A stretch of DNA of 11,312 nucleotides from Streptomyces sp. NRRL WC-3549 (GTDB lineage: Bacteria; Actinomycetota; Actinomycetes; Streptomycetales; Streptomycetaceae): contig NZ_KL585381.1 in assembly GCF_000721935.1 (NCBI RefSeq), positions 223,030 through 234,341 of the forward strand, read 5' to 3'. Of the stretch, positions 947 to 11,312 are shown one piece after another (positions within the stretch are counted from its first letter, which is position 1; every line of letters starts with the position of its first letter). The notes beneath the pieces are model-generated. The model ran no database searches. It had not been told where the DNA came from and saw only the letters and a program-made list of their open reading frames with translations. Both the position numbers and the translations under genes were made by a program.

Positions 947-2073
947 ATGCACGTCACGCATCTCTCGCTGGCCGACTTCCGCTCGTACGCCCGGGCCGAG
1001 GTCCCTCTCGACCCGGGCGTCACCGTGTTCGTGGGGGCCAACGGCCAGGGCAAGACCAATCTGGTGGAGGCCGTCGGCTACCTCGCGACGCTCGGCAGCC
1101 ACCGGGTCTCCTCCGACGCCCCGCTGGTGCGGATGGGCGCGGAGCGCGCCGTCGTCCGGGCCGCGGTCACCCAGGGCGAGCGCTCGCAGCTGATCGAGCT
1201 GGAGCTCAACCCGGGCCGCGCCAACCGGGCACGCGTCAACCGGTCCTCCCAGGTCAGGCCCCGTGACGTCCTGGGGATAGTCAGGACCGTGCTGTTCGCC
1301 CCGGAGGACCTGGCCCTGGTGAAGGGTGACCCGGGGGAGCGCCGCCGGTTCCTCGACGAGCTGGTCACCGCACGTTCCCCGCGCATGGCGGGCGTCCGGT
1401 CCGACTACGAGCGGGTGCTGAAGCAGCGCAACACCCTGCTGAAGTCCACGGCGATGGCCCGCCGGCACGGCGGACGGTCGATGGACCTGTCCACCCTCGA
1501 CGTATGGGACCAGCACCTCGCCCGGGTCGGCGCCGAGCTGCTCGTCCAGCGGCTGGACCTGATCGCGACCCTGCAGCCGCTGGCCGACAAGGCGTACGCG
1601 GACGTCGCCCCGGGCGGCGGCCCGGTGGCGCTGGACTACCGCAGCTCCGTCGGACCCGAGGGGGCGGCCTCCCGTAGCCGCGAGGAGCTGTACGAGCAGG
1701 TGATGGCGGCGCTCGCCGGGGCCCGCAAGCAGGAGATCGAGCGGGGCGTGACGCTGGTGGGCCCGCACCGGGACGACCTGGTGCTGGGGCTGCGCGGCAT
1801 GCCCGCCAAGGGGTACGCGAGCCACGGTGAGTCCTGGTCGTACGCGCTGGCGCTTCGGCTGGCCTCGTACGACCTGCTGCGCGGCGAGGGCAACGAGCCG
1901 GTGCTGATCCTGGACGACGTGTTCGCCGAGCTCGACACCCGCCGCCGCGAGCGGCCGAGCTGGTGGCCCCCGGCGAGCAGGTGCTGGTGACGGCGGCGGT
2001 GGACGACGACGTCCCCGGGGTCCTGTCGGGTACGCGGTATGCGGTGTCCGAGGGCGCGGTGGAGCGGCTGTGA
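947..2073 (+). pseudogene. recF: DNA replication/repair protein RecF, frameshifted near the 3' end
   Basis: RecF is an SMC/ABC-type ATPase that helps load RecA at gapped DNA with RecO and RecR. From the ATG at 947 (GGGAAGG 9 nt upstream) the protein shows Walker A GANGQGKT (30-37), [12 protein letters not shown] (127-138), the signature-like SHGES (292-296) and Walker [13 protein letters not shown] (319-330). After Arg336 the frame gives 11 unrelated residues ([11 protein letters not shown]) and stops at the TGA at 1988-1990, making 347 aa. The normal actinobacterial C-terminus ([19 protein letters not shown] and onward, 39 codons) lies in another frame from 1954 to the TGA at 2071-2073. Restoring 4 nt near 1953 would give RERLAELVAPG and a typical length of 376 aa. 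The lost part follows the D-loop and includes the last core strand, so function is doubtful. It could be a real mutation or an assembly error. The intended stop overlaps the next gene's GTG. Confidence 0.9.
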
Positions 2074-2642
2074 GCGGTCCGTCCGAGGCCCCACGCGGGC
2101 CGGCCGGGCCCGCGTCCCCAGGGGGGAAGGAGCCCGAGCTGTCGGGTGTCGACCTGGCGCGGGTCGCGCTGCGGGCGGCGAAGGAGCAGGCCCGGGCCCG
2201 GGGCACGGCCGCGCAACAGCGAAATCAGGCCAGACGCGGGGGCGGCCTGCGGTCGGGAGCCCGGTCCGACGGGCGTGACCCGCTGGCGCTGGGCTCGGCG
2301 ATCAACCGGCTGATCACGGAGCGCGGCTGGGAGACGCCGGCCGCGGTGGGCGGTGTGATGGGCCGGTGGCCGCAGATCGTCGGGGACGACCTCGCCAAGC
2401 ACTGTGTGCCGGTGCGCTATGACGAGGATCCGCAGGAGCGGGTCCTCACGGTGAGCTGCGATTCCACGGCGTGGGCGACGCAGCTGCGGTTGCTCGCCCC
2501 GCAGCTGGTGGCGCGGCTGAACACCGATCTGGGCCACGGCACGGTGCGCGTGATCAAGGTGCTGGGTCCCGGAGGCCCGCAGCGGGGTTTCGGCCCGCTG
2601 CGGGCCCCCGGCAGCCGGGGACCGGGCGACACCTACGGCTGA
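2070..2642 (+). CDS. dciA: DUF721 protein, DciA-like replicative helicase loader
   Basis: This 190-aa protein starts with GTG inside the recF stop (GTGA overlap), preceded by GGTGGAG at 2058-2064. Residues 1-69 are rich in Gly, Pro, Ala and Arg and look disordered or DNA-binding. Residues 70-165 form the DUF721/DciA domain, with [15 protein letters not shown] (98-112) and the strand-helix segment [15 protein letters not shown] (125-139). Family members without a DnaC/DnaI loader (the mycobacterial homologue is Rv0004) interact with the replicative helicase DnaB and are needed for replication initiation. The place between recF and gyrB is the conserved actinobacterial one. The C-terminal tail (166-190) is Gly/Pro/Arg-rich. 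The helicase-loading role is inferred from family and position; the domain assignment is firm. Confidence 0.88.
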
Positions 2643-8876: not shown

Positions 8877-9236
8877 TCAGGGTGGCAGCGGGGTCGAGTC
8901 CCGGGCGGGTGCCGGACCGAGGGCGGCGAGGGCGCCGAGCGTCGTGCGGGCGGTGTTCACGGAGTCGGTGGTCAGCTGCCGGGTGGCGGGCGAGGAACCG
9001 TGCGCCTCGGCGCGGATGCGCTGCTTCATCGTGGGCGGCAGTGCCCTGTCACGCGGAAAAGTCCATCGCGCGGACGGGGCGGGCACGGTTGCCGGGGTCG
9101 CCGCCGTGTGCTCCTGGGGCGTGGCCGCCGGCTCCGTGGCCATGGCCGGGGCGGAGGCGAGGCCCAGCGACGCGAGAAGTGCGAAGAAGGCGGTGACGAA
9201 GGCGGTCCAGATGCTCTTGGCCTTGAAGCTGCTCAT
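8877..9236 (-). CDS. Small exported protein of unknown function (possibly DUF6344-like)
   Basis: This - strand gene encodes 119 aa. Residues 1-33 form a clear Sec signal peptide: basic start (MSSFKAKS), hydrophobic core (FVTAFFALLASLGLA) and likely cleavage after APAMA (Ala33). The mature part begins with a Thr/Ala/Pro-rich linker (34-55). It then has a charged segment, LPPTMKQRIRAEAHGSSP (about 66-83), which looks like the conserved core, and ends in an Ala/Pro-rich tail. The start ATG is preceded by a GA-rich sequence (GCGAGGGG) placed very close to it. I recall similar Streptomyces proteins under a DUF label, but I cannot confirm the family, and no enzymatic motif is present. The gene is convergent with the tRNA and divergent from the DLW-39-like gene, with 283 nt between the two start codons. 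Confidence 0.72.
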   Translation of the reverse strand: MSSFKAKSIWTAFVTAFFALLASLGLASAPAMATEPAATPQEHTAATPATVPAPSARWTFPRDRALPPTMKQRIRAEAHGSSPATRQLTTDSVNTARTTLGALAALGPAPARDSTPLPP

Positions 9237-9519: not shown

Positions 9520-9654
9520 GTGAAGAAGCTTCTCCTGGTCGCACTGGCCGCCATCGGCGGGCTCCTCGTGTACCGCCAGATCCAGGCGGATCGCGCCGAG
9601 CAGGATCTGTGGACGGAGGCGACCGACTCCGTGCCCGCAGGTTCGGGTGTGTGA
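9520..9654 (+). CDS. DLW-39 family membrane microprotein
   Basis: This is a 44-aa protein beginning with GTG at 9520. GAGG at 9509-9512 sits 7 nt upstream and gives the start MKKLLLVALA. An in-frame ATG upstream at 9466 would overlap the -10 box and add an unlikely basic N-terminus. Residues 2-17 are a single hydrophobic segment after KK. They are followed by a charged amphipathic stretch, RQIQADRAEQDLW (19-31), which contains the Asp-Leu-Trp triplet that names the family, and a short polar tail. The protein is probably anchored in the membrane by its N-terminus. The family is conserved in actinobacteria at about this length and near gyrA; I know of no assigned function. A strong terminator follows 20 nt after the stop, so it is a single-gene unit. 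Confidence 0.87.
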   Translation: MKKLLLVALAAIGGLLVYRQIQADRAEQDLWTEATDSVPAGSGV

Positions 9655-10025: not shown

Positions 10026-11312
10026 GTGAACAGGCAGCGCAGCAGGGGCCGGGTGGCGTCGGCGGCGGCCGCGGCGATGTGCGCGGCGGCGATGCTGCCG
10101 GGACAGGCGCTGGCGGCGACCGGCCCGGAGGCGTACGCCTTCGACCCGGCGGCGAAGACGGTGCGCGGCGCGGAGAGCAACTCCGAGGCCGAGGAGCTGA
10201 CGCCGGGATCGGTCCACCGCAGCTCGATCAAGCCGGGCGAGAAGCTCTACTACCGCGTGGAGCTCGACGACAGGACCAACGCCTACGTCTCCGCGGTCGC
10301 CGTGCCGAAGGCCGGGCAGGTCGCGTACGGGGACGGCATCACCGTGGGCATCCGCAACCTGGACGACACCCGGTGCGGATCGGGGGACGCGTCCTTCGGG
10401 CCGGCGGAGTTCCCGCGTCCCATCGCCGCGTACGCCTCCCGGACGGTGGAGAAGGGCAGTACCGACCCGTGCGACGCGGCCGGCACCTACAACGTCCTGG
10501 TCGAGCGGGAGAGCAAGCCGACCTCGTCCCCCGCCGAATGGGACCTGGAGCTGCGCTTCACCTCCGAACCGGCGACGAAGTCCGGCCAGGCGCAGCCGAC
10601 CGCGGCACCCGAGAACTGGCCGTCGGCCTCACCGGTCCCGCCCACGGGCCGGCGGAAGCGGTCCGGCGGCAGCAGCTACTACGAGGCCACCAGCCTGGAG
10701 ACGGGCGTGTGGGCGGACACCGTCGCCCCGGGCCAGACGCGCTTCTACCGGGTGCCCGTGGACTGGGGCCAGCAGATCTTCGCGACGGCCGCGCTCAGCA
10801 ACGACAACAAGTCCACCGAGTACCACGGCAACGCCTTGGCGGTGGCGCTCGACAACCCGGCGCTCGGGCACGTCGACGGCACCACCGCGTCGTACTCGGG
10901 GAAGCCGGTCTCGGTCTCCCTGAGGCCGCTTCCCCCGGTGGCGTACGAGAACCGCCACGCCTCCGCCTCGGCCGTCGGCGCCATGCGGTTCGCCGGCTGG
11001 TACTACCTGTCGGTGACGCTCGATCCGGCGGTCGCCGAGCACTACGGGGACGACCCCATCGGTCTGACCCTCAGGGTCAGCGTCCGCGGCGAGGCCCGCT
11101 CCGGGCCCTACGCCGGGAGCGCGGGGATCTTCGGGGTCACCGACGGGGACAGGGACATGGCCCGGAGCGGGCAGAGCGCCCCGCAGGCCGAGAGGAGCGG
11201 CACCATGACGACGGTGGCCGCCGCCGGGATCGGCACGGGGTCGGTGCTGGTGCTCGGACTGGGGGTGTGGACGCTGCTGGCCAGGCGCCGGCCCGCCGTT
11301 CCCGCGCCGGCA
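10026..11312 (+). CDS. Secreted, C-terminally anchored protein with duplicated beta-rich module (3' end outside window)
   Basis: The frame is open from GTG at 10026 (GAGGGG 6 nt upstream) to the window edge: 429 codons, no stop seen. Residues 1-30 form a signal peptide with likely cleavage after QALA. Residues about 31-180 and 218-355 look like two related beta-rich modules: SSIKPGEKLYYRVELD (66-81) resembles ADTVAPGQTRFYRVPVD (230-246), and each is followed by an alternating hydrophobic strand. Module 1 has Cys117 and Cys149, a possible disulfide. A Pro/Ala/Ser linker with RRKR (209-212) joins the modules. After a polar stretch, a membrane segment (about 396-419) is followed by RRR, the arrangement of a type I membrane protein, so the end of the gene is probably near. 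The modules faintly resemble PPC-type binding domains. I do not recognise the family and see no catalytic motif. Confidence 0.8.
   Translation, partial: MNRQRSRGRVASAAAAAMCAAAMLPGQALAATGPEAYAFDPAAKTVRGAESNSEAEELTPGSVHRSSIKPGEKLYYRVELDDRTNAYVSAVAVPKAGQVAYGDGITVGIRNLDDTRCGSGDASFGPAEFPRPIAAYASRTVEKGSTDPCDAAGTYNVLVERESKPTSSPAEWDLELRFTSEPATKSGQAQPTAAPENWPSASPVPPTGRRKRSGGSSYYEATSLETGVWADTVAPGQTRFYRVPVDWGQQIFATAALSNDNKSTEYHGNALAVALDNPALGHVDGTTASYSGKPVSVSLRPLPPVAYENRHASASAVGAMRFAGWYYLSVTLDPAVAEHYGDDPIGLTLRVSVRGEARSGPYAGSAGIFGVTDGDRDMARSGQSAPQAERSGTMTTVAAAGIGTGSVLVLGLGVWTLLARRRPAVPAPA

Follow-up and report, generated by a model that had tools for sequence, protein, structure and literature searches.

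The recF gene of Streptomyces sp. NRRL WC-3549 is broken in the available draft assembly (genome G000; 7.31 Mb in 124 contigs) by the absence of four bases, and we consider it somewhat probable that these bases dropped out where the short-read assembly, which is poor and contaminated with adapters, is locally faulty. Such a fault would most likely go back to a spurious short overlap or to one erroneous read in a region of thin coverage, and in the living strain RecF is probably ordinary and of full length. A first-pass annotation, made from the letters alone, had placed a frame break just after the Walker B motif and stated that, if the break is real, the strain has lost the last 40 residues of RecF. 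The observation is correct, and the loss of these residues holds for the sequence as assembled, whereas their loss by the living strain is not established; a loss of RecF by the strain remains an unproven claim that, in view of the state of the assembly, is likelier wrong than right.

The analyzed window comprises 11,312 nucleotides (C1:223030-234341, where C1 is the contig) and contains gnd, recF, dciA (DUF721), gyrB, gyrA, a DUF3566 membrane protein gene, a tRNA-Ile gene, a gene for a DUF6344 protein, and two genes for proteins without a Pfam match. The DUF6344 gene lies on the reverse strand (8877-9236), downstream of gyrA and tRNA-Ile. The two proteins without a Pfam match, both encoded on the forward strand, are a 44-residue protein (9520-9651) and a long one that appears secreted by eye (10026-11312).

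The assembled recF reading frame (947-1990, forward strand, stop codon at 1988-1990) encodes 347 amino acids, namely 336 normal residues followed by 11 out-of-frame ones, and scores 278.9 bits against the NCBIfam model TIGR00611 (cut-off 172), covering profile positions 2-322 of 339. The in-frame residues are 92% identical to the best Streptomyces protein matches. Three motifs, located by translation and by invariant alignment columns and assigned from general knowledge, are all present and intact: residues G30-N38 (1034-1060), which we take to be Walker A; S292-S296 (1820-1834), presumably the ABC signature region; and L320-D330 (1904-1936), presumably Walker B with the D-loop, which is the final conserved motif ahead of the lesion. 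Motifs of RecF are treated in the accessible part of PMC5794780.

The junction itself lies at 1949-1956. A DNA alignment with three relatives reveals a 4-nt gap private to this genome at window position 1952/1953 (C1:224982), where all three carry four extra bases; the alignment agrees with the first-pass annotation both in the loss of four nucleotides rather than one and in its placement between copies of GGC. The usual C-terminal end of RecF lies intact in the other, -1 frame (1954-2073, forward strand), with 39 residues and a stop codon at 2071-2073, and its 90% identity to the corresponding end in the relative G274 means that this frame does not match by chance. Thus, RecF as assembled lacks 40 residues and has gained 11 unrelated ones. 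A second recF copy was rejected, since the remainder of the genome holds just two weak partial matches (E-values of 5.6e-5 and 9.5e-4).

Among the missing residues is a strand motif that can be aligned with the known RecF structure 2O5V. According to the predicted structure of an intact relative, which is weak (mean pLDDT of 62.8), the lost part consists of the end of a helix, a strand, another helix, and a hairpin. A truncated RecF would probably be inactive. The following gene, dciA (2070-2642, forward strand), encodes a member of the DciA helicase loader family (PF05258), and its GTG start codon overlaps the usual recF stop codon in the sequence GTGA. Such an overlap, either ATGA or GTGA, is found in 101 of the 108 relatives with a recF stop codon; as assembled, translation of recF stops 79 nt ahead of the dciA start.

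The lesion is present in the assembled sequence and was found in no relative that we examined. The comparison covers 109 relative loci, including 80 named ones found by short peptides from the part of RecF preceding the lesion and 29 that are the best DNA matches to positions 1700-2110; because this query includes the junction, these 29 do not represent an unbiased sample. All 109 have the usual tail with the strand QVL[VI]TAAV, although the contig of L097 ends beyond the tail; RecF with the C-terminal QVLVTAAV strand in the same frame is therefore universal among these loci and is not encountered in the assembly under study. The relatives' proteins have a median length of 376 residues and a range of 371-433 (108 loci with a stop codon). 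The lesion itself occurs in 0 of the 109 loci (95% upper bound of 2.7%) and in 0 of 391 other genomes (bound of 0.8%), the latter figure coming from a search in 392 Streptomyces genomes for the exact junction pattern with two free positions, which requires near-identical flanks and would miss the same deletion amid other codons; its single hit was the studied genome. Relatives with an equally shortened RecF, proposed by the first-pass annotation as evidence that would refute a private loss, were found neither at these loci nor among the listed RecF protein matches (120 out of 7,695). The listed proteins have 372-388 residues; their matches span 97% of the query and end at the junction, past which none of them aligns. 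The best protein matches are 92% identical for RecF and 93% for DciA in a database clustered at 90%, and this clustering, together with a genome collection from which records of this genome may be missing, limits the comparison with sister strains.

The assembly contains many other local faults, which the letters of the window could not have revealed to the first-pass annotation. Its completeness is 85.5%, and in the 273 kb of C1 there are 50 runs of N, each 128-332 bases long, or about one per 5.5 kb, which we read as scaffold gaps; the window sits exactly between two of them. N can also stand for withheld sequence, but adapter sequence adjoins many of these runs. This genome contains 282 exact matches to the 19-nt Nextera end and none to the reversed control sequence. 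It is one of 10 out of 121 genomes of the genus with any such match, the runner-up having 17. The accessible part of PMC3906532, a paper on NexteraXT adapters, gives this 19-nt sequence twice. On contigs C1 and C40, an adapter piece of at least 10 nt lies within 60 nt of 28 out of 91 gaps, and 20 out of 23 whole adapters are no more than 30 nt away from a gap. Among the copies in the genome are those at C1:4370 and at C1:234601, the latter directly past the right-hand gap of the window, and one at C40:49092 that is distant from gaps. Three adapters are located within genes without any gap, each judged against a single relative: at C40:1537 (against G274), C40:97522 (against G029, and lacking about 50 nt of the gene), and C11:130644 (against G204). 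In addition, a block is replaced at C11:100320 (again relative to G204 only), the gene at C1:178871-179008 carries a tandem duplication of 23 bp along with a frame break at C1:178957-179008, and C1:165134, at a distance of 69 nt from a gap, has gained one base. A private single-base deletion is also seen at C40:80223, 528 nt from a gap, in a transporter-like gene, presumably of the EamA type as judged from its sequence.

A rough count, made after inspection by eye, gives nine broken genes including recF among 277 genes in 531 kb, or approximately 3%. On C1, nine frame-change rows for 140 genes yielded recF, G029|717, and G204|961; among the six dropped rows, G274|240 spans an N gap, and the others resemble starts extended too far, variable regions, or sequence between genes. 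The six rows for 81 genes on C40 yielded G274|154, G029|142, and G274|49 with three dropped, and the eight rows for 56 genes on C11 yielded recO and G204|68 with six dropped; G204|220 on C11 was added from the internal-stop rows because of its internal adapter. Outside this count are 13 internal-stop rows on C1, 13 on C40, and 5 on C11, some of them for the same genes, and the region C11:200001-220000 has no comparable gene. Frame-change rows in the controls, which were inspected in part, amount to 4 of 159, 3 of 160, and 2 of 157 for C1 and to 7 of 66 and 3 of 66 for C40, and at least one of them, in G274, resembles a true private single-base change. Genes alignable in all genomes comprise 123 of 140 on C1 and 49 of 81 on C40. 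Clean frame-breaking private indels number eight on C1 versus zero, six, and two in the relatives, and six on C40 versus seven and one. Small indels by themselves do not distinguish this genome from its relatives; the case for an assembly error is based on the adapters and the missing or doubled blocks.

As a gene of the same pathway as recF, recO was also inspected. This gene (approximately C11:121071-120350, locus L244) lacks 19 bases that are present in four out of four relatives, and its reading frame directly meets a stop, after residue 84, while recR has one intact match in the genome. At about 3% per gene, a rate in which recO itself is counted, the chance of a break is approximately 0.03 for recO and 0.06 for either recO or recR. 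Private changes in recF comprise 11 amino-acid and 8 silent ones, versus 4:25, 12:34, and 1:17 in three relatives (17:76 together). Fisher's test of this ratio yields a p-value of 0.0008 for the comparison with the three relatives, 0.015 for that with four neighbouring genes of the same genome, and 0.097 for that with the other 110 of its genes. When genes are ranked by their excess relative to two relatives, recF comes 109th out of 111, but by private amino-acid changes per codon only 70th out of 111. Compared with 99 relatives, 2 of the 336 residues in the RecF body are unseen elsewhere, a number also reached by 5 out of 32 near relatives and by 32 out of all 99, and none of the 39 tail residues is. 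The private changes in recO (3 amino-acid and 11 silent) are as in the relatives. Two fresh and independent lesions without decay would suit a faulty assembly better than prolonged relaxed selection.

The main rival to an assembly fault is a real and recent slippage deletion of 4 nt between the GGC copies in the strain itself, which we regard as a substantial possibility that falls short of being probable. Such a deletion would deprive RecF of the terminal part of the helix that follows the D-loop, of the QVLVTAAV strand, and of the last hairpin, probably leaving it inactive, and translation would end 79 nt before dciA rather than at its start. The clean loss of bases between short repeats looks like ordinary slippage and unlike a typical read error, and the accessible part of PMC3485313, on the lacI hot spot, describes tetranucleotide loss between repeats as a classic event. 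Several observations likewise count against an error: the lesion lies mid-contig, with the nearest gap 1,953 nt away, in a window with no adapter end piece of at least 10 nt and no whole adapter at up to 3 mismatches; small, clean frame-breaking indels are not clearly more frequent in this genome than in the relatives; recF stands out in its 11:8 ratio and its high rank by excess; and recO is broken too, with recR intact. A real deletion, however, has to be reconciled with its absence from every relative locus and, within the reach of the flank-dependent pattern, from the other genomes, with a demonstrably faulty assembly, with the undecayed tail and just two novel residues in the body, with the middling rank of recF by changes per codon, and with a recO gene that shows no decay either. 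According to the accessible part of PMC3711429, isolated frame breaks validated by BLASTp are expected to be sequencing errors over genuine indels; the same source holds that breaks near the 3' end are likelier than others to be real indels, which weighs against reading the recF lesion as an error. Given the faults documented elsewhere in the assembly, we would nevertheless count the recF lesion among them, with the overlap or read fault named above as its presumed origin. That both the recF and the recO lesions are real, amounting to a very recent loss of RecFOR gap repair through independent deletions, with recR kept and dciA translation uncoupled from that of recF, appears unlikely.

Two further explanations accept the sequence and preserve a working protein. 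Programmed -1 frameshifting could restore the normal RecF end, and is compatible with the intact tail in the -1 frame and with the CCCCC run at 1967-1971; we rejected it as highly improbable, since no slippery heptamer of the X XXY YYZ type occurs between 1880 and 1990, as the first-pass annotation had also noted, and since the break is conserved in none of the 109 relative loci, all of which encode the tail in a single frame. Still less probable is that the shortened RecF functions with its novel C-terminus: the lesion spares the upstream motifs for nucleotide binding, but the lost strand motif is retained in all 109 relative loci, and the 120 listed proteins, each of 372-388 residues, offer no match to anything beyond the junction.

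If the lesion is an assembly error, as we favour, it serves as a warning against the use of this genome, or of gene-loss calls derived from it, without the reads. If it is real, the strain would be a natural recF, and perhaps recF recO, mutant of Streptomyces, providing a handle on RecA loading at gaps without RecF and on the dependence of dciA on recF translation. Should both lesions be real, the strain would represent a natural Streptomyces with RecR alone at the onset of pathway loss, among examined relatives that all keep RecF (109 loci) and RecO (four genomes).

The gnd-recF-dciA-gyrB-gyrA order is the same in the relative G274, and RecF proteins of S. californicus (P0001), S. sindenensis (L034), and S. 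globisporus (L035), as well as the family TIGR00611, share with the assembled protein the ATPase motifs and the 336 in-frame residues at 92% identity; the latter protein differs from them in lacking the final 40 residues and in ending with 11 unrelated ones. Like the singleton frame breaks in the accessible part of PMC3711429, the break in recF is isolated, supported by protein matches, and unconserved; it differs from them in its position near the 3' end, where real indels are relatively likelier. As at the lacI hot spot in the part of PMC3485313 cited above, recF is missing a 4-nt unit between short repeats; however, the repeat copies are fewer in recF, and the event is known here only from the assembled sequence. 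The genomes in the accessible part of PMC1193525 that keep RecR without RecF or RecO have lost the genes altogether, whereas the recF and recO breaks described here are fresh, occur in no examined relative, and come from a faulty draft; as assembled, the studied genome resembles them in combining an intact recR with broken recF and recO.
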